A DNA stretch of 36,230 bases from positions 1 through 36,230 of the forward strand of contig JAAYBJ010000291.1 in NCBI GenBank assembly GCA_012730105.1, in the 5' to 3' direction. Position 1 is the stretch's first letter, and each line of letters begins with the position of its first letter. Below the pieces are notes generated by a model. The model searched no databases and was not told the origin of the DNA. It worked only from the letters and a program-made list of their open reading frames with translations. The translations under genes and the position numbers were made by a program. Of this stretch, positions 6,542-36,230 are shown piece by piece. Source of the DNA: Candidatus Hydrogenedentota bacterium (GTDB lineage: Bacteria > Hydrogenedentota > Hydrogenedentia > Hydrogenedentales > CAITNO01).

Positions 6542-6591
6542 TATCAACGCGTTAGATTTGAACATTGATGAAGGGGATGAACAGGATAAGG

Positions 6592-7041
6592 CGCTTAGGG
6601 TCATTTCGCTGCCAATTTAATTATGAGCTCTGTTTTAAGTATAGGTAACCAAGAAGAGGATCATATTTTGATTTGTCTCAAAGACCCAAAAACAACGCGT
6701 CACTCCGGTTTTTCGCTGTGGGGAAAAGACATGTATCGAAGCGTGTGCCAAGCCGCGAAAAGACCGGAATCTATCTTTGGAAGCCGCACGTGAGGAACAG
6801 CCCGTATCAGATGTATTTTTTAAGATGGGAAATGGGCATTCATTGCAGCGAGACGAATCTGGATTCCGGTCTTTTTCGCGTTGTACAGTACCGTTCTTCG
6901 CTACAAGTCAGAGATTGCGAAAAAACCGGAATGACAGTGCTTACGGTTGTTTATAATGAAACGAGAAATACGTTGATACGGGCGTGTTTCATGTGTTTCT
7001 TTCTGGCTGAGATACTGCGTTTCGGTTGCGCCGAAGGCGTC
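6592..7041 (+). repeat. Long interspersed repeat, copy 1 (non-coding, nested inverted elements)
   Basis: About 450 bases match 35781-36230 in the same orientation at roughly 91% identity (31 differences in 366 aligned bases counted by hand), with one indel near the left end. Inside lie four related 16-19-base elements: A 6701-6716 and C 6863-6880 in one orientation, B 6754-6770 and D 6917-6935 reversed. A pairs with D and B with C, giving a nested dyad, and A-B or C-D can also pair. A typical element is ATTCCGGTCTTTTTCGCG. The reading frame from 6649 through the repeat is open, but the differences between copies are mostly amino-acid changing, so it is not treated as a gene. Confidence 0.85.
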
Positions 7042-7072
7042 CCTTCTTCCGGGCGAAGTCCCGGACGAAGGG
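7041..7072 (+). terminator. Strong hairpin, possible terminator
   Basis: A 13-base stem with one mismatch (CCCTTCTTCCGGG at 7041-7053, CCCGGACGAAGGG at 7060-7072) closes a 6-base loop. On the plus strand it is followed by TAGCTTCTTTTTG, a delayed T-tract. It could end transcripts from the symporter or the repeat, or be part of the repeat boundary. Confidence 0.45.
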
Positions 7073-7132
7073 TAGCTTCTTTTTGTTTCTTATCTCGCCA
7101 TATCGGCAATAAGGCACAAACACCTGTTCAGG

Positions 7133-27194: not shown

Positions 27195-29234
27195 TTATTG
27201 TACTGTTGCCATGATACCGGCCAGTCTTTCGTCCAGCGCGGCGCGGGCAGCGTCAAAGGTGCACCGCTCCAGGTGGGTGTCGCCCACGCGCACATTCGGA
27301 CTCTGGCCGCAGCGTTCCATGCAGAACGTGGCGCTGAGATGGACGCGGTCTTCCAGGTTTTTGTTTTCCACATAACGTGTCAGTTTACGAAGGAGTTCCT
27401 GAGATCCGTTGAGGAAACAGTTGGTACCTACGCACACCTGCACCGGGATCTTCTCAGCTTCCTGTCCCTCGATGATTTCGAGGTTCAGCTCGTGAAGACG
27501 GCGCCGGTGCTGGTATTCCGTGTGCAGGGCGTCGTGCGCGGCATGGCCGCCGACTTCGCCAAAATGCTCCCGGTAGCATCGCGCCAGTTCCGGATTTTCC
27601 TGGGCCTTGTGAAGTTCGAGCCCCTTGTCATTGTGGTAAATCGCCCTGGCGCGCTGCCTGCGGACTTCCGGGCCGGGCGCATGGGGTTGGCCGGCCCCGG
27701 CGACGCATCCGCCCGGGCAGGCCATGACTTCGACCAGGTGGTAGGGGCATGCGCCGTTCTGGATGCTTTCGACCACGGTCTTGACGTTCGCCAGGCCGTT
27801 CACGATGGCCAGCCGCAGCTCCACGCCGTTCACGGTAATAACGGCCTCGCGCAGCCCGGCCTCGCCGCGGACTTCCTTGAAGTCCACCTGTTCGAGGGGT
27901 GTTCCCCGCATTTTTTCAACCGCGTAGCGAAGCACGGCCTCGGTAACGCCGCCGGATACCCCGAAGAGGACGCCGGCGCCGGTTTTGAATCCCAAGGGCA
28001 TGTCAAAGGATTCCGGTTCGAGCGTGTCCAGTTGCAGGCCGCATTGGCGCAGCATCTGGCCCAGTTCCGTTGTGGTGATGACATGGTTTACCTCGGGCAC
28101 GCCGTCGTGAATGAATTTATCCTGCTTGGCCTCAAATTTCTTTGCCGTGCAGGGCATGACCGAAACGATCACCAGTTCTTTGCCTTCTAGTTTCATCTGT
28201 TCCGGCAGCATTTTTCGCGCGACCGCGCCGAACATCTGCTGGGGCGACTTGCAGCTGGACAGGTTCGGGAGCAGCTCATGATGGAACTGCTCGGCGTATT
28301 TGACCCAGGCGGGACAGCATGAAGTGAACAGGGGCAGCGGGCCTCCGTCGCTGAAACGGCGCAGGAATTCTTCGCCTTCCTCCAGCACGGTCATGTCGGC
28401 GGTAAAGGAGGTGTCGTACACCTTGTCGAAGCCGATGGCGCGCAGCGCCGCCACAGCCTGGCCGGTGGTGATGCTGCCCGGCTTCATGCCGAAATATTCA
28501 CCGAGTCCGACGCGCACGGCCGGCGCCAGCTGGGCGATCACCACCTTGTCCGGGTCGTCGAGGTCGGCCCAGACCGCGTCCATTTCGGGCCGGGGCGTCA
28601 GCGCGCCCGTGGGACACACCGACGCGCACAAGCCGCAGTTCACGCATTCCCCGGTGTCCAGGTTCTGGCCGAAAGCGGGCAGCACGGCGCTGTGCGCGCC
28701 GCGGAAGGCGAAATCAATGGCGCCGACGCCCTGCAGTTCCCGGCAGGCGCGCACGCAGTCGCCGCAAAGCACGCACTTGTTGGGATCACGCACGAGGGAC
28801 AGCGACGATTTGTCCTTGGGTTGCCGCTCGTGAACCGGCTTGTAGCGCACTTCGTCAATGCCCATGCGCTCCGAAAGCTCGCGCAGCCGGCAGGTGGCGC
28901 TGCGCGCGCAGGTGGGGCAGTTCATGTCATGGTTGGCCAGCAGCAGTTCCAGCGCGATCCTGCGGATGTCGCGGACCTGTTTGGTATTGGTGCGGACCTG
29001 CATGCCCGGTTCGGGAACGATCGAACACGACGCCTGCACGCCGCGGCCCTCGATTTCCACCAGGCACAGGCGGCACGCGCCGTACACGCTCAACTCGGAA
29101 TGGTAACAGAAGGTCGGTATGTCGATGCCGGCTTTGCGCGCGACCTCGAGCACGTTACGCTCGCCTTCCAGCGGCAGTTCACGCCCGTCAATAATCATGG
29201 TTGCGGGTTTCGGGGTGTCTGGTGTGGTGTTCAT
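27195..29234 (-). CDS. hydA: [FeFe]-hydrogenase catalytic subunit of a HydABC-type complex
   Basis: This 679-residue subunit interconverts H2 and protons. From the N-terminus it has a [2Fe-2S] ferredoxin (Cys43, 54, 57, 70), a His/Cys cluster site (NHDMNCPTCARSATC), two [4Fe-4S] sites (154-164 and 197-207), and the H-cluster domain with all three signatures: TSCCPAW (Cys306, Cys307), MPCTAKK (Cys362) and MACPGGCVAGAGQP (Cys506, Cys510). The proton-relay Cys306 is present. A C-terminal thioredoxin-like [2Fe-2S] domain follows (Cys601, 606, 638, 642), as in bifurcating HydA proteins. Its start overlaps hydB by four bases. With HydB and HydC it can couple H2 to both NAD(H) and ferredoxin. Maturases HydEFG are not in the window. 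Confidence 0.96.
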   Translation of the reverse strand: MNTTPDTPKPATMIIDGRELPLEGERNVLEVARKAGIDIPTFCYHSELSVYGACRLCLVEIEGRGVQASCSIVPEPGMQVRTNTKQVRDIRRIALELLLANHDMNCPTCARSATCRLRELSERMGIDEVRYKPVHERQPKDKSSLSLVRDPNKCVLCGDCVRACRELQGVGAIDFAFRGAHSAVLPAFGQNLDTGECVNCGLCASVCPTGALTPRPEMDAVWADLDDPDKVVIAQLAPAVRVGLGEYFGMKPGSITTGQAVAALRAIGFDKVYDTSFTADMTVLEEGEEFLRRFSDGGPLPLFTSCCPAWVKYAEQFHHELLPNLSSCKSPQQMFGAVARKMLPEQMKLEGKELVIVSVMPCTAKKFEAKQDKFIHDGVPEVNHVITTTELGQMLRQCGLQLDTLEPESFDMPLGFKTGAGVLFGVSGGVTEAVLRYAVEKMRGTPLEQVDFKEVRGEAGLREAVITVNGVELRLAIVNGLANVKTVVESIQNGACPYHLVEVMACPGGCVAGAGQPHAPGPEVRRQRARAIYHNDKGLELHKAQENPELARCYREHFGEVGGHAAHDALHTEYQHRRRLHELNLEIIEGQEAEKIPVQVCVGTNCFLNGSQELLRKLTRYVENKNLEDRVHLSATFCMERCGQSPNVRVGDTHLERCTFDAARAALDERLAGIMATVQ

Positions 29235-31162
29235 AGTATGGCTCCCTGCACGATGGCGTCAAAGCGGCAGCTTTCAATGCACGCGCCGCATTTTATGCAC
29301 TGTTCCTGGTGAATGGTATGGGGTTGTTTCTTTTCTCCGGTGATGGCGTTTACGGGGCACTTCCGCGCGCATACGCCGCACCCGATACATTTCTCGGCCA
29401 GTATGACGGGTGCGCAGAGGTTCTTGCACACGCCCGCGGGGCAGCGTTTTTCAAAGACATGGGCTTCGTATTCCTTCCGGAAATACCGCAGCGTGGAGAG
29501 AACGGGGTTGGGTGCGGTCTTGCCAAGTCCGCAGAGAGAACCGATCTTGACGGCCCGGGCCGTCTGCTCCAGGATTTCCAGGGTTTTCGCGTCCGCCTCG
29601 CCCGCGATGATTTCATCGAGCAGCATGAGCATCTGCCGGGTGCCCTCGCGGCAGAGCACGCACTTGCCGCAGGACTCGTTCTGGGCGAACTGCATGAAGA
29701 ACCGGGCCACGCTGACCATGCAGGTCTTGTTGTTCATGACCACGAGGCCGCCGGAGCCGACCATGGCGCCGACGCTGCCCAGCGAGTCGAAATCCAGGGG
29801 CAGATCGGCATGTTCCTCGACCAGGCAGCCCCCGGAAGGGCCGCCAATCTGGACGGCCTTGAAGGGCTCGCCGGAGACGGCGCCGCTGTTGTCTGTGACA
29901 CCACCGCCGATCTCGTACACAATCTCGCGGAGGGTGGCGCCGAAAGGCACCTCGATGAGACCCGTGTTCGCCACGTGTCCGGTCAGGGCAAAGGTCTTGG
30001 TGCCGGGCGATTTTTCAGTGCCCCGGGCGCGGTATTGGGCGGCGCCGTGCCGCACGATAAGCGGCACGCTCGCCAGGGTTTCCACATTGTTGATGACCGT
30101 CGGCTTTCCCCAGAGCCCGCTCTGCGCGGGGAAGGGCGGTTTGGGCATGGGCATGCCGCGCTTGCCCTCGATGGAGGCGATAAGCGCCGTCTCCTCGCCG
30201 CAGACAAAAGCGCCCGCCCCTTCCATGATATGCAGGGTGAAGTTGAATCCGCTGCCGAAGATATTTTCCCCGAGCACGCCGTATTCGCGGGCGGCCTGTT
30301 CGGCCCGGTTGAGGCGCTTCACCGCCAGCGGGTATTCCATGCGCACGTACACATACCCTTCATGGGCGCCGATGGCCCGCGCGGCAATCAACATGCCCTC
30401 GATAACGGCGTGGGGATTGCCTTCCATGACGCTGCGATCCATAAACGCGCCCGGGTCGCCCTCGTCGCCGTTGCAGATGACATATTTTTCATCGCCGGGC
30501 TGCACCCGGGTCAGTTCCCATTTCCGCCCCGTGGGGAAGCCGCCGCCGCCCCGTCCGCGCAAGCCGGATTCGAGAATCAGGGCGCAGACCTCCTCCGGTT
30601 GCATGTCACACACGGCGCGCCGGGCCGCCTCATAGCCGCCGTGATGCACGTATTCGGCGATATCTTCCGGATCAAGCATGCCGCATTCCTTGAGCACTGT
30701 CCGGGTCTGCCGCTGGTAGAAGGGGATGGTGTCCTTTCCCTTGCAGTGCTCGCCGGTTCGGGGATGGCGGTACAGCAGGCGTTCTACAACCTCGCCGCCG
30801 GCAAGCGTTGTTTGAATAATTTCGGCCACATCGTCCGGCGTCACCCGCGTGTACAGGATTTCCTCGGGTTCAATGGTGACCAGGGGCCCCATCTGGCAGA
30901 ATCCCTGGCAGCCGCTCTTGGAGAGGTAAATATCAATGGCTCCGTCGGGTGTAGCGGCGTCTTCCCCTTCCAGCCGGGTGACCACGTTCAGCCCCATCGC
31001 GCGAAGCTGTTCGGAAAAGGCGTCGCGCACCTGCAGCGCGCCGCCGGCCACACAGCCGGTGCCCGCGCAAATGATGATGCGCCGTTTAACGCGGGCGATA
31101 CGGTCCGCGTAGTGTGCGGCGGTTTCCGTCAAATCTGGTATGGCGATTGTCGCGGTTGTCAT
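29231..31162 (-). CDS. hydB: NuoF-like NAD(H)/FMN subunit of the HydABC hydrogenase
   Basis: The 643 residues form the diaphorase and probable bifurcation subunit. The N-terminal thioredoxin-like [2Fe-2S] domain uses Cys32, 37, 85 and 89. The FMN/NADH domain has GLRGRGGGGFPTGRKW (200-215) and CNGDEGDPGAF. The NuoF [4Fe-4S] site is ESCGKCVLCREGT (Cys498, 501, 504). Two [4Fe-4S] ferredoxin motifs close the protein (CIGCGVCARKCPVNAITG, CIKCGACIESC). This is the full HydB domain order, unlike the shorter NuoF of complex I. It overlaps both hydC and hydA by four bases, so the three are translated together. Confidence 0.96.
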   Translation of the reverse strand: MTTATIAIPDLTETAAHYADRIARVKRRIIICAGTGCVAGGALQVRDAFSEQLRAMGLNVVTRLEGEDAATPDGAIDIYLSKSGCQGFCQMGPLVTIEPEEILYTRVTPDDVAEIIQTTLAGGEVVERLLYRHPRTGEHCKGKDTIPFYQRQTRTVLKECGMLDPEDIAEYVHHGGYEAARRAVCDMQPEEVCALILESGLRGRGGGGFPTGRKWELTRVQPGDEKYVICNGDEGDPGAFMDRSVMEGNPHAVIEGMLIAARAIGAHEGYVYVRMEYPLAVKRLNRAEQAAREYGVLGENIFGSGFNFTLHIMEGAGAFVCGEETALIASIEGKRGMPMPKPPFPAQSGLWGKPTVINNVETLASVPLIVRHGAAQYRARGTEKSPGTKTFALTGHVANTGLIEVPFGATLREIVYEIGGGVTDNSGAVSGEPFKAVQIGGPSGGCLVEEHADLPLDFDSLGSVGAMVGSGGLVVMNNKTCMVSVARFFMQFAQNESCGKCVLCREGTRQMLMLLDEIIAGEADAKTLEILEQTARAVKIGSLCGLGKTAPNPVLSTLRYFRKEYEAHVFEKRCPAGVCKNLCAPVILAEKCIGCGVCARKCPVNAITGEKKQPHTIHQEQCIKCGACIESCRFDAIVQGAIL

Positions 31163-31650
31163 TGGGTTGCCTCACTTTCCAGGATCTTGTCCAATACTTC
31201 ATCGCACTTTGCCGGGGTCATCATGCCGTGGACGACCTCATTAACCACCATCACGGGGGCCAGGCCGCAGGCGCCGAGGCAGGATACGGTCTCCACCGTG
31301 AACAGCAGGTCGTCCGTGGTGTTTTTGCCTTCTTTCAGAGCCAGTTTTTTACGGATGGCGGCCAGCAGGCTTTCGGAGTTCTTCACGTGACAGGCCGTGC
31401 CGTCGCAGACATGCACGACATACTTGCCCTTGGGCGTCAGCGCGAAATGGGCGTAGAAGGTCGCCACGCCGAAGACGCTGGACGGGGACAGGCCCAGGGC
31501 CGTGGCCACGTAGGCCAGCGCTTCCTTGGGCAGGTAGCGGTATTCCGCCTGCACCGCCTGCAGGATGGGAATGAGTTTCGCCGGTTTTCGTTCGTACCGG
31601 TCGAGAATCTCGCAGATCTTTTCGAACTGTCGGGTTGTTGTTTGTTTCAT
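31159..31650 (-). CDS. hydC: NuoE-like [2Fe-2S] subunit of the HydABC hydrogenase
   Basis: This 163-residue thioredoxin-like ferredoxin has a helical N-terminus (QFEKICEILDRYERKPAKLIPILQAVQ) and one [2Fe-2S] cluster (Cys82, Cys87 in VCDGTACHV; Cys124, Cys128 in VSCLGACGL). It passes electrons between HydB and HydA. AGGAG lies 11 bases before the ATG. A 49-base gap separates it from the phosphatase gene upstream, and it overlaps hydB by four bases. Confidence 0.95.
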   Translation of the reverse strand: MKQTTTRQFEKICEILDRYERKPAKLIPILQAVQAEYRYLPKEALAYVATALGLSPSSVFGVATFYAHFALTPKGKYVVHVCDGTACHVKNSESLLAAIRKKLALKEGKNTTDDLLFTVETVSCLGACGLAPVMVVNEVVHGMMTPAKCDEVLDKILESEATQ

Positions 31651-31699
31651 GGCTGTTGTAACTCCTGGGACATCATTTCGGGGATGCGCGTTTAGGGTT

Positions 31700-32878
31700 T
31701 TAAATACAGGTGATGCTGGTTTCTTTCAGGTAGTTCTTCTCAAGAACCCCGGCAAGGCGGCGCACAATGTTCCGCCGTATTTCCAGGTCCATTGGAAGTT
31801 TCGGATCCTGGTGGGCCTCGTTGATCCGGCTGCCGACCACAAACTCGATGACATCGCTTTCGAGCAACACGGACGCCAGGCGCGCGGCGGGGTCGTGCGC
31901 GGGAAGCGTTTTCTGCTCTTCGAGCATCCGCGCCGCCCGGGTCAGCGTGAGAATGCCTTCGGTCACGAGATCCACGCCGTCCATGACGGAAAGCGGCGGT
32001 ATGTCGTCGGACAGGCTTTTCAGATCCATTCGTATTTCACGCCCGAGTTCACGGGCGATAATGCCCGCTGTCGTGCCGCCGCATATGACGCTTTTCCCTG
32101 CAAACTCCGCGAGTTTCCGGGCATATTCCGCGTCGCGGCTCTTGTCGTAGGGCGGTCCGGTCAGCAACAGCAGGTTGCGCGGCCGACGAAAATAAATCAC
32201 GCCGCAGGTCATGTCATCCTGGGCGGTGCGTCGTGGTTCCTTCTCCAGGGCCTCGCGGATGACCCGTTCCGCCAGGGCGTGTGCGGACAGTTCCGGGTTC
32301 TCGTTCAGCAGCTGCGTCACGAAGGCGTTCACTCCCGCTTCGCGCCAGCCCAGGGGCCAGGCCTTCGTGCCGATGCCCGCCTGGGTGATGCCGTCCGACA
32401 CAAGCACGACGCGGTCCTCGGGAAGGGTGTCCGTTTCCGCGACGCGCAGCACGCGGTCCTGCCACTTGGGGGATACCATCTTGCGGTACCGCAGGGGTTG
32501 TTCCTTGTTGCACCGGAGAAACAGGGTTTCCGGGTTGTCCATCTCGATAATCCGGGCGCGTCCATCCAGCGCGCAGTCCACAATGGTGAAGGTGGCGTAG
32601 CTGATTTTGCGCACCTGGCACACGGGCAGGGCGTCCATCATGATCTCCGCCGAGTGGATGAAATCCATGTTGCTCGCGGTGAACTTGAGCGCCATGGCGG
32701 CCGTCATGCCGGACAGTATGCTCGCCTTCACGCCGCTGCCCAGGCCGTCGGAAAGCACGGCCAGCACGCGCGCGCCGTCGTCCAGCCGCTTCGACTTGAA
32801 GGCGTCGCCGCAGATGTCCTGGCCGTGTTTGCGGCACTGGACATGATCCACTTCCAGGAACAGGGGCATGCTGGTCAT
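31700..32878 (-). CDS. SpoIIE-type PP2C serine phosphatase with an extra C-terminal domain, in the hydrogenase operon
   Basis: The 392-residue protein has an N-terminal SpoIIE/PP2C phosphatase domain (about 1-232). Metal-binding acidic residues are Asp25 (CGDAF), Asp44 in LSDGLGSG, the LVSDGITQAG segment and AQDDMTCGVIYF. A C-terminal domain (about 235-392, LLLLTGPPYDKSRDAEYARKL... onward) is not recognised; it looks like a Rossmann-type fold (GKSVICGGTTAGIIA). Its start overlaps hydS by four bases. HydS and a SpoIIE phosphatase recur together in hydrogenase operons, where they are thought to sense H2 or redox state and act on a kinase or anti-sigma pathway. No target is encoded here. Confidence 0.88.
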   Translation of the reverse strand: MTSMPLFLEVDHVQCRKHGQDICGDAFKSKRLDDGARVLAVLSDGLGSGVKASILSGMTAAMALKFTASNMDFIHSAEIMMDALPVCQVRKISYATFTIVDCALDGRARIIEMDNPETLFLRCNKEQPLRYRKMVSPKWQDRVLRVAETDTLPEDRVVLVSDGITQAGIGTKAWPLGWREAGVNAFVTQLLNENPELSAHALAERVIREALEKEPRRTAQDDMTCGVIYFRRPRNLLLLTGPPYDKSRDAEYARKLAEFAGKSVICGGTTAGIIARELGREIRMDLKSLSDDIPPLSVMDGVDLVTEGILTLTRAARMLEEQKTLPAHDPAARLASVLLESDVIEFVVGSRINEAHQDPKLPMDLEIRRNIVRRLAGVLEKNYLKETSITCI

Positions 32879-34623
32879 GGCGCGCCCTCCCTGTCCCGGC
32901 CGTCGAGGGGGAAATGGCCGTTGTCCGCGGCATAGCCTTCGGCGATGCTGCGCAGCAGGATTTCCGTGTCGGCCATGTGTTCGCCGAGGCGGCAGGCGAT
33001 TTCCTGCACCGTGGAAAGATTGCGGCGGATCACTTCCTGGGCGCGCTGGGCGATCTGGTCGCGCTGCATTTCGCGCCGGGTCACGTCCAGGATGACCGCG
33101 CCGACGACCTGGCCGGGCTCCAGCGTGAAAATGGTGATGTTCAGCAGGCGGTTCCCGTCGCGGTAATGGTCGTAATGAACCTCGCGGTCAAAGGTCAACG
33201 CGGTGCGGAACATGTCGGCGAAGGGCAGCACCTTCTCCAGCGAACAATTCTTGAGGCCGGGGCAGGCGTCGTAAACTTCCGAGACCTCTTCGCCGAACAT
33301 GCGCCCGAAGCGCTCATTGCATTCGACGATACGCAGGTCGGCGTCTACGATGACCACGCCCGACGGCATGGAACGCAGGAGCGCGTTGGCTTTCTTGTGG
33401 GCCAGGTCGCGCATGTAGGACACGCACATGGACGGCTCGGCCGAACCGGCCACCAGGGCGGCGGCGAATTCACGGCAACTGTTGTACCCGCAGCCCGAGC
33501 AGTTCAATTCATCTTCACGGCGTTTCTTTCCAATCTGGCGCAGGGCGTCCTGGATTCGGACCGGATCCGGTTCAGGGATATTCGCCGCTTCGGGGGCCAA
33601 CACCCGCTCAATATCCACCCGGGGTGTGCGTGCGACCGGCGCGGGCGGCGTTTGCGCGCGATCTTCCACTTCCATGCGTTTTGCCAGCGTCGGCGCAGGC
33701 GCCGTGGCGCAGGGGCCGCCGATGCAGCCGCCCTCGCAGGCCAGCGCCTCGACAAACACGGGGTGTTCCAGGGTCGCCGGGTCCAAACCTGTAAGGGCCT
33801 TGCGAATATTGTCAACGCCCGAGACGGTGACAAAGCGCACGTGGCTGTAATCACCCAGGAGGCGGATGCTCTCCGTCATGCCGCCCTCGATGGGATACAG
33901 GGCGCCTTCCGCGGCGGTTTCGGGGACAAACGCGTCCCCCGCCGCTGTGGTTTGAGCAGGCGTGATTCCCGCCAGGGTGAACCACTCGCGCAGTTCCTCA
34001 AAAGTCAACGCAAGGTCCAGCAACTCCGGATACGTGTCCGCCTCATTTTTCTTGGCAATGCACGGCCCGAAAAAAAGGATGCGTATGTCCGGGCCGAACT
34101 GCCTGCGCAGCAGGGCGCAATGGGCCAGGACCGGCGAATGGAGTTGGGTAAGCACGGGCGAATGGACGGGCAGGTACTTGCGCACCAGCGACACCGCGGC
34201 CGGGCAGGCTGAAGAAATATGGATGCCCGGCGTTCCGGCGGCCAGCGATCGTGCCACGGTCGCCGACACTTCCTGGGCGCCCAGGGCGGTTTCGCTCACA
34301 CCGGCAAAGCCAAGGCGTTTCAGTGCCGCGACCATGCGGGTCGCGGGCACGCCGGGAAATTCGCCGACCCACGAGGGGGCCAATGAGGCATACACTGCGC
34401 CGCCACGGCCCAGGAGGTGCCGGGCCCGGCTCAGGTCGTTCCGGATTTTTTTCGCGTGGGCGGGGCATACTTCCACGCAGGAGCCGCAGGTGATGCATAG
34501 CGACGGGGTGACCCTGGCGTGTCCGTTTTCCACGCGAATGGCCTTCACCGGGCACTGCCGCAGGCATTTGTAGCAGTCCTGGCAGGCGGTCTCCGCGGTG
34601 TATATCGGAAATTGCCGTTCCAT
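32875..34623 (-). CDS. hydS: Sensory [FeFe]-hydrogenase with PAS domain (HydS, group C)
   Basis: The 582-residue protein has two N-terminal [4Fe-4S] ferredoxin motifs (14-24, 43-53), a hydrogenase-like domain, a four-cysteine cluster (CSGCGYNSC, 375-383, plus Cys400) and a PAS domain (about 412-515), ending in a short helical segment without a kinase. The H-cluster ligands are kept as Cys140, Cys188, Cys296 and Cys300. The first signature reads SSACPA, so Ala139 replaces the proton-relay Cys, and GPCIAKK replaces MPC. These are marks of sensory rather than catalytic enzymes. The ATG at 34623 has GGGAG seven bases before it; a GTG at 34629 is less likely. It follows the small ferredoxin gene by two bases and overlaps the phosphatase gene. 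Confidence 0.93.
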   Translation of the reverse strand: MERQFPIYTAETACQDCYKCLRQCPVKAIRVENGHARVTPSLCITCGSCVEVCPAHAKKIRNDLSRARHLLGRGGAVYASLAPSWVGEFPGVPATRMVAALKRLGFAGVSETALGAQEVSATVARSLAAGTPGIHISSACPAAVSLVRKYLPVHSPVLTQLHSPVLAHCALLRRQFGPDIRILFFGPCIAKKNEADTYPELLDLALTFEELREWFTLAGITPAQTTAAGDAFVPETAAEGALYPIEGGMTESIRLLGDYSHVRFVTVSGVDNIRKALTGLDPATLEHPVFVEALACEGGCIGGPCATAPAPTLAKRMEVEDRAQTPPAPVARTPRVDIERVLAPEAANIPEPDPVRIQDALRQIGKKRREDELNCSGCGYNSCREFAAALVAGSAEPSMCVSYMRDLAHKKANALLRSMPSGVVIVDADLRIVECNERFGRMFGEEVSEVYDACPGLKNCSLEKVLPFADMFRTALTFDREVHYDHYRDGNRLLNITIFTLEPGQVVGAVILDVTRREMQRDQIAQRAQEVIRRNLSTVQEIACRLGEHMADTEILLRSIAEGYAADNGHFPLDGRDREGAP

Positions 34624-34625
34624 GA

Positions 34626-34886
34626 TCACACTCCCGTTTCCCTGACAAAATGGTTTTCCAAAAGATCCAACAACATGCCCTCGTCCACATGAGGATAGCG
34701 TGTCCCGTCGATCACCAGGTTGGGTCCGTCCGCGCAGCGCCCTTCACAGCGGCTGCCCGTGATCTCCACCAGGTCCTTCAGGCCCCGCTCCACAAGGAAT
34801 TCTTCAATCATCGGCAGCAGGCGCCGGTTGCCCCGGGCGAAACAGGAACTGCCCATGCAGATGATGATGGTGTGGCGCGCGTTCAT
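34626..34886 (-). CDS. Free-standing thioredoxin-like [2Fe-2S] ferredoxin
   Basis: The 86 residues form a single [2Fe-2S] domain with Cys10, Cys15, Cys47 and Cys51 (CMGSSC and SRCEGRC), like the C-terminal part of NuoE or the N-terminal part of HydB. It overlaps rex by four bases and ends two bases before hydS. It could carry electrons to the sensory hydrogenase or to HydABC; position favours HydS. Confidence 0.88.
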   Translation of the reverse strand: MNARHTIIICMGSSCFARGNRRLLPMIEEFLVERGLKDLVEITGSRCEGRCADGPNLVIDGTRYPHVDEGMLLDLLENHFVRETGV

Positions 34887-35590
34887 GATGTCGTCTCCTG
34901 GCGGCGTGCCTGCCTTGCCCGGTCTTTCTTGTCTTCACCGCGCAGCAGCGCCGTCAGTTTGCTGGACAGCACGCCCAGCGAGTTGAACAGGTTTTCGTTC
35001 TGTACGATGATGCCGTCAGGGACTGTGAGCGCGGTGGGCGCAAAGTTCCACAGCGCCCGTATCCCGGTCATGATCATAAGATCACACACCGGCTGGGCCT
35101 GTTCCGCGGGTACGGTGAGAATGCCGATATGCACCTTCATCCGTTCCAGCAGGTTCGGCAGTTTCAACAGGGGGAATACGGGAATGCCGTGCACTTCCGA
35201 ACCCTGTTTCATCGGATTGGTGTCGAAGGCGGCGACGATGTTGACACCGTAGCGGTTGAAGGGCCGATAACCCAGCAGGGCGGTGCCCAGACTGCCCACG
35301 CCGACCAGCACGGCGTCGCGGGCGTTGTTCCAGCCCAGGAAATCTTCCATCTGCTGGAAAAGGGCTTCCGTTTCGTAGCCGACCTTGGGCCGGCCGACCG
35401 CCCCGGCCAGCGCCAGGTCTTTGCGCACCTGGGTGGGATCCAGATTCAGTTCGTTGCCGATTTGGGTGCAGGACACGCGTGCCACCCCTTCCCGGGCGAG
35501 TCGATGCAGTACTTGGCAGTAATTGGGCAACCGCCGCAAGGTCGGTTCCGGAATACCTTTAATTGCGCTGTTTTTGGGTTGTGGCGTCAT
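34883..35590 (-). CDS. rex: Redox-sensing transcriptional repressor Rex
   Basis: The 235-residue protein has an N-terminal winged helix (about 14-66; EPTLRRLPNYCQVL, SCTQIGNELNLDPTQVRKDLA) and a C-terminal Rossmann domain that binds NADH/NAD+ (VGVGSLGTAL, 96-105). Rex leaves its DNA when NADH is high. It is the first gene of the hydrogenase operon and should repress it and itself, matching the operator-like repeats at the promoter. AGGA lies 12 bases before the ATG. Confidence 0.95.
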   Translation of the reverse strand: MTPQPKNSAIKGIPEPTLRRLPNYCQVLHRLAREGVARVSCTQIGNELNLDPTQVRKDLALAGAVGRPKVGYETEALFQQMEDFLGWNNARDAVLVGVGSLGTALLGYRPFNRYGVNIVAAFDTNPMKQGSEVHGIPVFPLLKLPNLLERMKVHIGILTVPAEQAQPVCDLMIMTGIRALWNFAPTALTVPDGIIVQNENLFNSLGVLSSKLTALLRGEDKKDRARQARRQETTS

Positions 35591-35723: not shown

Positions 35724-35780
35724 GCTTTTCCGAAATTTTTTTTCACGAGGACATACGGGCAAGCCGACAGGCAGAAAAAT

Positions 35781-36230
35781 CGCTTAGGGCCATTTCGCTG
35801 ACAAATAATTATGCGTTCTGTTTTAAGTATAGATAACCGAGAAGAGTGCCATGTTTTGATTTGTCTCAAAGACCCAAAAACAACGCGTCATTCCGGTTTT
35901 TCGCGGTGGGGAAAAGACAGGTATCGAAGCGTGTGCCAGGCCGCGAAAAGACCGGAATCTATCTTTGGAAGCCGCGTGTAAGGAACAGATCGTGTCAGAT
36001 GTATTTTTTAAGATGGGAAAAGGGCATTTATTGCAGCGGGACGAATCTGGATTCCGGTCTTTTTCGCGTTGTACAGTACCGTTCTTCGATGCTGGCCAAA
36101 GATCGCGAAAAAACCGGAATGACGCTGCTTAAGGTTGTTTATAATGAAACGATAAATACGTTGATACGGGTGTGTTTCACGTGTTTGTTTCTGACTGAGA
36201 TGCTGCGTTTCGGTTGCGCCAAAGGCGCCA
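35781..36230 (+). repeat. Long interspersed repeat, copy 2 (cut by window end)
   Basis: Same element as at 6592-7041, same orientation, about 91% identical. The four inner elements lie at about 35888-35903, 35942-35958, 36051-36068 and 36104-36123. The two inner elements (B, C) are unchanged between copies, while the sequence around them differs. The stretch 35724-35780 shows nothing. Confidence 0.85.

Follow-up and report, generated by a model that had tools for sequence, protein, structure and literature searches.

A repeat that carries REP-like palindromes between fixed ends: a probable non-autonomous transposable element in Candidatus Hydrogenedentota

The repeat and its hairpin core

The stretch of DNA analysed here (the window) is one entire contig of 36,230 bp (G000:C266) from the 5.6-Mb metagenome-assembled genome G000 of a Candidatus Hydrogenedentota bacterium. 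It contains two direct copies of a repeat, and the likeness of about 91% given for them in an earlier note on the window was confirmed over the 448 bp that they have in common; this is the gapped and valid figure, the ungapped comparison giving 32% owing to an early indel. The length of 450 bp stated in the same note has to be revised: the full unit measures 487 bp (6589-7075), and copy 2 appears 450 bp long because the contig end at 36230 falls inside it. The description of the repeat as noncoding stands, as no reading frame is open in all copies, and a Pfam search of its one long ORF gave no match. Its G+C content is 45%, compared with 58% for the window. Copy 2 adjoins an [FeFe]-hydrogenase cluster (27195-35590) that comprises NuoF- and NuoG-like subunits, a SpoIIE phosphatase and a PAS-hydrogenase sensor and ends in a Rex-like repressor. 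Both copies belong to a subfamily termed type 1, with the following parts:

6589-7075, + strand: copy 1, a complete type-1 element of 487 bp; own-genome loci supply 68 distinct 5′ ends and 54 3′ ends; absent at the orthologous locus of G001 and G002
6589-6641, + strand: head, the conserved 5′ end module (AGGCGCTTA-GG-CATTTCGCTGACAATTA...); 63 matches at up to three mismatches, 0 in the reversed control
6697-6775, + strand: REP unit 1, the CGTC-tagged A-B hairpin (A 6699-6716, B 6753-6771); compensatory pairs
6858-6937, - strand: REP unit 2, the C-D hairpin, an inverted version of the A-B unit (C 6862-6880, D 6917-6935); alignment of 47 cores
7023-7075, + strand: tail, the 3′ end module of two hairpins followed by GGGTAG (consensus GCGTAG); covariance model R1, E 5.1e-22, and pair counts
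35778-36230, + strand: copy 2, which lacks the tail as the contig ends first; DNA search, head matches and contig end
35887-36123, + strand: A-B-C-D core of copy 2 (A 35887-35904, B 35941-35959, C 36050-36068, D 36105-36123)

The inverted arms of the four elements A to D were recovered mechanically in the window sequence, at the coordinates listed above. The earlier note had allowed two folds, either A:D with B:C or A:B with C:D, and had proposed a search for covariation across copies. Among 47 cores aligned from G000 and its congeners, 98.3% of cells pair under A:B plus C:D, the covariation score exceeds that of every shuffle and double changes occur in 3 pairs (0 of 500 shuffles), a signal carried by few variable pairs (5 cells). 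All covariation measures for A:D plus B:C, by contrast, lie at or below those of the shuffles. Since compensatory changes accompany only the former pairing, the core consists of two inverted hairpin units rather than one nested dyad. Examples of such changes are TTTTTTGCGG/CCGCAAAAA in A and B of type-3 copies and ATCCCGG/CCGGGAT in C and D of locus L150; templated repair of palindromes can produce compensatory changes without selection.

In 47 of 47 cores, A-B and the reverse complement of C-D represent one and the same unit of ~78 nt in inverted orientation, with the approximate layout CGTCATTCCGGTTTTTCGCG-(~40 nt with TATCGAAG)-CGCGAAAAGACCGGAATCCAG. The unit begins with ATTCCGG and forms a stem of ~16 bp with a bulge and a loop of ~40 nt; in most cores, CGTC lies ahead of A and GACG behind D. 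The core is thus an inverted dimer of a hairpin unit that resembles a CGTC-tagged REP but has a longer stem and a longer loop.

Ends, target site and distribution of type-1 elements

Further copies, for which the earlier note had suggested searching, number at least 60 in G000. A DNA search returned at least 47 matching stretches (40 of 161 candidates scored), element C has 111 matches at up to three mismatches (17 with the reversed control), 72 at up to one mismatch and 57 exact ones, and the tail pattern was counted 50 times (control 0), next to the 63 heads listed above; the tail covariance model gives 62 matches. The assembly breaks ~127 bp into the repeat and many copies sit exactly at contig ends. 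Because contigs end within copies, the copy count is a minimum, and in most cases a left flank cannot be assigned to its right counterpart; both flanks of one insertion are known for about a dozen intact copies. The proposal that the two direct copies recombine to excise the 29-kb hydrogenase and sulfatase interval between them found no support: the copies are 91% alike, there are more than 60 others, and no product of such a deletion was observed.

Type-1 ends are sharp. The 5′ end is AGGCGCTTAAGGCC and the 3′ end consists of two hairpins followed by GCGTAG, the first bases being AGGCGCTTARGGCC and the last ..CGGACGAAGCGTAG. In the tail hairpins, 94% of cells are paired and 6 pairs show double changes, a count reached in 6 of 500 shuffles and also by one slid control. 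The flanks are constrained as well. To the left of 68 heads, T is found in 55 at position -1 and in 44 at position -2, and TTAG flanks most copies. To the right of 54 tails the pattern is NNNCTTA, with C in 41, T in 48 and T in 48 at positions +4 to +6, followed by A in 37. CTT is present in 16 of 27 right flanks without visible other repeat units, a set picked by eye (P ~2e-22 against the local CTT frequency), and in 30 of 42 flanks drawn mostly from other genomes, among which at least three loci (L289, L294 and L301) belong to G000 itself. As read from these flanks, type-1 insertions sit at TTAG^NNNCTT-like sites.

Comparison of the flanks, likewise suggested in the earlier note as a check for target-site duplications, revealed none in intact type-1 copies. 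One exception, L003, has GGGACTTA at both flanks, within a GGACTTAAAGGAC repeat; tracts of GGACTTAAAGGAC are another high-copy repeat of G000 and adjoin the insertions L003, L005, L008, L009 and L175. Head-to-tail tandems occur in contigs C134, C138, C214, C276, C56 and C289, and their junction sequence is GCGTAG|GCGCTTAAGG.

The lack of duplication, together with tandem arrays that are extended at the 5′ edge of units already present, would also suit an integron-like process in which a tyrosine or DEDD (IS110-type) recombinase acts on circular frames and uses the tail hairpin as its recombination site; the target TWAGNNNCTWA is near-palindromic and the hairpin extends across the tandem junction. 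However, the base before TT (-3) is not conserved (T 23, A 15, C 16, G 14), so that the GTTRRRY crossover core of attC is absent from type 1, and the insertions are scattered in both orientations instead of being clustered at one site. We consider this reading unlikely.

At the copy-1 locus, the repeat lies between genes for an SDF symporter and a TlpA-like protein, an orthologous pair that is 118 bp apart in G001 (690 bp in G000) and 236 bp apart in G002 (747 bp in G000). The shorter spacing implies that the insert is absent from both congeners, an absence read from gene spacing, as the congener intergenic DNA is too diverged to align exact empty sites. The distribution among the 68 genomes of the class that were searched with the tail model is patchy: G000 has 62 tails, its congeners G002 and G003 have 50 and 53, and the 95% complete congener G001 has 0; G040 has 54 and three further members of its genus have 0; G015, G010 and G024 have 26, 9 and 9, and each remaining genome has at most one. 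These uneven counts among relatives fit mobile DNA. The head module is also present in genera g1 and g3, and element C is carried by the public 'Candidatus Hydrogenedentota' MAGs UR.bin34 and RA.bin58, with no match in viral contigs.

Cargo exchange and a second vehicle for the core

The ends of type 1 are not tied to one content. We read out 34 head-to-tail elements of 121-496 bp with various cargos, and in G000 as well as in genus g3 the same ends also enclose unrelated palindromes. These include CTGGGAACGCC palindromes (L208, L303, L067, L296 and others), canonical-looking CGTC REP dimers CGTCATTCCCGTGAAAACGGGAATCCA in G015 (L053, L068) and GTGTCCATCCGTGG/CCACAGATGAACAC in G010 (L047, L054); L302 carries one long REP unit, and no palindrome is evident inside L282 and L061. 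The cargos of L180 and L208 are identical except that the segment between their inverted repeats is flipped, suggesting inversion between the palindromes. By this comparison of sequences, the core is cargo within a fixed frame whose head measures ~45 bp and whose tail measures ~53 bp. A second frame family, with the head TACCTTATGG, palindromes GTTCACGCTTTAGCGTG and the tail ..GGGCAAAGCCCACGTTAG, was observed at L161, L166, L169-L172, L179 and L203; it often lies directly 3′ of a type-1 tail and occurs by itself at L203, where ..TTATTAG precedes it.

Conversely, some copies share only the core region (model positions 54-420) and then run to other ends. These delimit a second vehicle of ~530 bp, CCCGGATCGCCGGATAAAA ... 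TTTTCTTATCCGGCGATCCGGG, with terminal inverted repeats (TIRs) and target duplications of 6-8 bp, such as AAAACTC (L140), GTCCGTT (L129), TCCCGG (L122) and CTCTTC (L123), which identify these copies as MITEs. The earlier statement that no terminal repeat is seen is thus correct for type 1 and does not extend to this sister subfamily, types 2 and 3, with the same core. The TIR of the second vehicle occurs 52 times in G007, of genus g5, a genome with high-copy MITEs of ~260 bp whose TIR reads CCCTGATCGCCGGATAAGA (e.g. L267-L270). Among the four G007 TIR pairs read out, three enclose CGTCATTGCGAGG palindromes and the fourth a GGGCGCGGCAAGCGGCGCCCC pair. A TIR search in 20 relatives for an autonomous IS found no transposase between any TIR pair. 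A RAYT that adjoins one TIR in G007 and G012 was rejected as the partner, since the two genomes share just this one locus and it lacks a second TIR.

Could the repeat instead be a structured RNA or protein-binding array with a host function, spread by duplication and recombination? Conservation is far higher in its 18-nt arms than in the rest of it, as the exact copies of element C illustrate, and single-strand folding of the repeat is stronger than that of shuffles (z -3.7). Yet an Rfam covariance search at gathering thresholds gave no match, a nearly complete congener has no tails, cargo is freely exchanged between the same ends, and no conserved position relative to orthologous genes was seen in the congeners (one locus tested); nor would a regulatory array be expected to have sharp ends and a target preference. 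This makes a host function highly improbable, and the structured RNA reading of the earlier note is not needed. Its suggestion of a non-autonomous mobile element, in turn, agrees with the high copy number, sharp ends, target preference, tandems, presence/absence and patchy distribution.

Mobilisation and relation to known systems

Taken together, the repeat is probably a non-autonomous transposable element, consisting of a fixed frame with cargo and moved by an enzyme acting in trans. Sharp ends, a target preference without duplication, tandems, exchange of cargo and presence/absence are shown by sequence comparison. The trans-acting enzyme, a circular or single-stranded intermediate and cuts after TTAG and GTAG are what we infer from them. 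Such a putative enzyme would recognise head and tail and cut the target 3′ of TTAG and the tail hairpin 3′ of GTAG; the frame would move via the circular or single-stranded intermediate, as IS200/IS605-type HUH transposases do, and the tandem junction is that expected of a circle. CGTC REP dimers would then spread as passengers of the frame, without a transposase of their own.

No pair of type-1 head and tail was found to enclose a transposase gene. One candidate is a host RAYT (TnpA_REP), which would move the repeat as a REPIN family, with the hairpin units as its substrate and the rest as carried flanking DNA. The core is indeed an inverted dimer, and one of the 10 Y1_Tnp matches in G000 (C107) adjoins a copy, although a single such neighbour is about what chance predicts at ~100 copies per 5.6 Mb, leaving a RAYT as mobiliser unsupported. 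The other nine Y1_Tnp loci are not flanked by core, head or tail, nor is the sole Y1 gene of G015 by tails of that genome, while the sharp ends of the element lie far outside the REP pair and its GTAG follows the tail hairpin on the 3′ side instead of preceding it. RAYT gene L104 (G000:C186:56124-56492) is flanked by its own, different GTAGGCCGGGTGGAG repeats of the GTAG type and represents an ordinary, distinct REPtron. A REPIN/RAYT origin is accordingly very unlikely in our estimate. The only IS200-type gene (C185) has TTAG nearby and other hairpins, but is single-copy with ends that are not definable, and no IS200/IS605 element with ends matching type 1 was found.

The leading source of the enzyme would be an unbinned autonomous copy. 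Eight heads in G000 (L185, L186, L187, L189, L190, L194, L209 and L217; contigs C72, C94, C145, C184, C42, C272 and C7) share near-identical inner DNA, whose reverse strand holds the end of an open frame, ..NALSDEIPPKRKPQPKSNLEKQYVAVQQHMSDLFKTLGIAA (..FKTLGIAA), ~40 bp from the 5′ end. The rest of the frame is missing from the G000 bin; the candidate unbinned contig begins AGGCGCTTAAGGCC...GAGTTCATGCGGCAATTCCC. The C-terminal 41 aa of the candidate gene (P0001) have no Pfam or NCBIfam match and none in phages, and the last 26 aa have none in plasmids. The near-identical, numerous copies and their place beside the head suggest that the candidate partner is an autonomous element that was active recently.

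CGTC-tagged REPs occur in several phyla and include Neisseria dRS3 and Rickettsia RPE-4/6 (Di Nocera et al. 2013, PMC3733652). They are defined by an unpaired CGTC (or TGTC/CCTC) at one end, have a stem of 8-9 bp beginning with AT and a loop of 4-5 nt, mostly form inverted dimers, and were reported without a dedicated transposase (PMC3733652). The units described here share the CGTC end, the AT at the start of the stem, the inverted dimers, a CCA-like tail on the C-D unit and the lack of a linked transposase, a Y1 gene lying beside one copy only; the dimers in G015 frames match the published CGTC-1 pattern. They differ in the longer stem and loop of the core and in that the dimers are enclosed in larger elements with defined ends. 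In TnpA_REP systems, GTAG is the guide, with the cut at CT (PMC8266576), and lies directly 5′ of the hairpin, unlike the GTAG of type 1. REPINs likewise comprise two REP units in inverted orientation; type 1, however, has long units, fixed outer ends and no RAYT flanked by its repeats.

MITEs and IS200-type elements are already known. Types 2 and 3 resemble DDE-type MITEs in having TIRs, duplications and no gene, whereas type 1 has neither TIR nor target duplication. The latter is more like palindrome-associated elements derived from IS200/IS605, given the missing duplication, subterminal 3′ hairpins and a constant left tetranucleotide, TTAG, that resembles the GTAG of the 3′ end, but its right flank (NNNCTT) is constrained too, while the known IS200/IS605 target lies on the 5′ side only. 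Type-1 elements are best classed as non-autonomous REP-carrying elements. Tentatively, the frames might even constitute a new class of transposon, TTAG^NNNCTT-preferring and duplication-free, whose fixed head and tail acquire, exchange and spread palindromes including CGTC REPs, and whose autonomous member would encode an undescribed enzyme ending ..NLEKQYVAVQQHMSDLFKTLGIAA beside the head.

A limited search of the open-access literature found no report of CGTC REP dimers as exchangeable cargo of framed elements. At a practical level, these repeats are a cause of fragmentation in the metagenome assemblies concerned. Palindromic cargo swapped between identical ends is an unusual form of modular mobile DNA, and now that CGTC REP dimers have been seen in two unrelated mobile vehicles whose ends can be defined, the movement of these REPs becomes testable by seeking the enzyme for the ends rather than for the REP. 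Frames that carry palindrome pairs may explain how CGTC palindromes spread.
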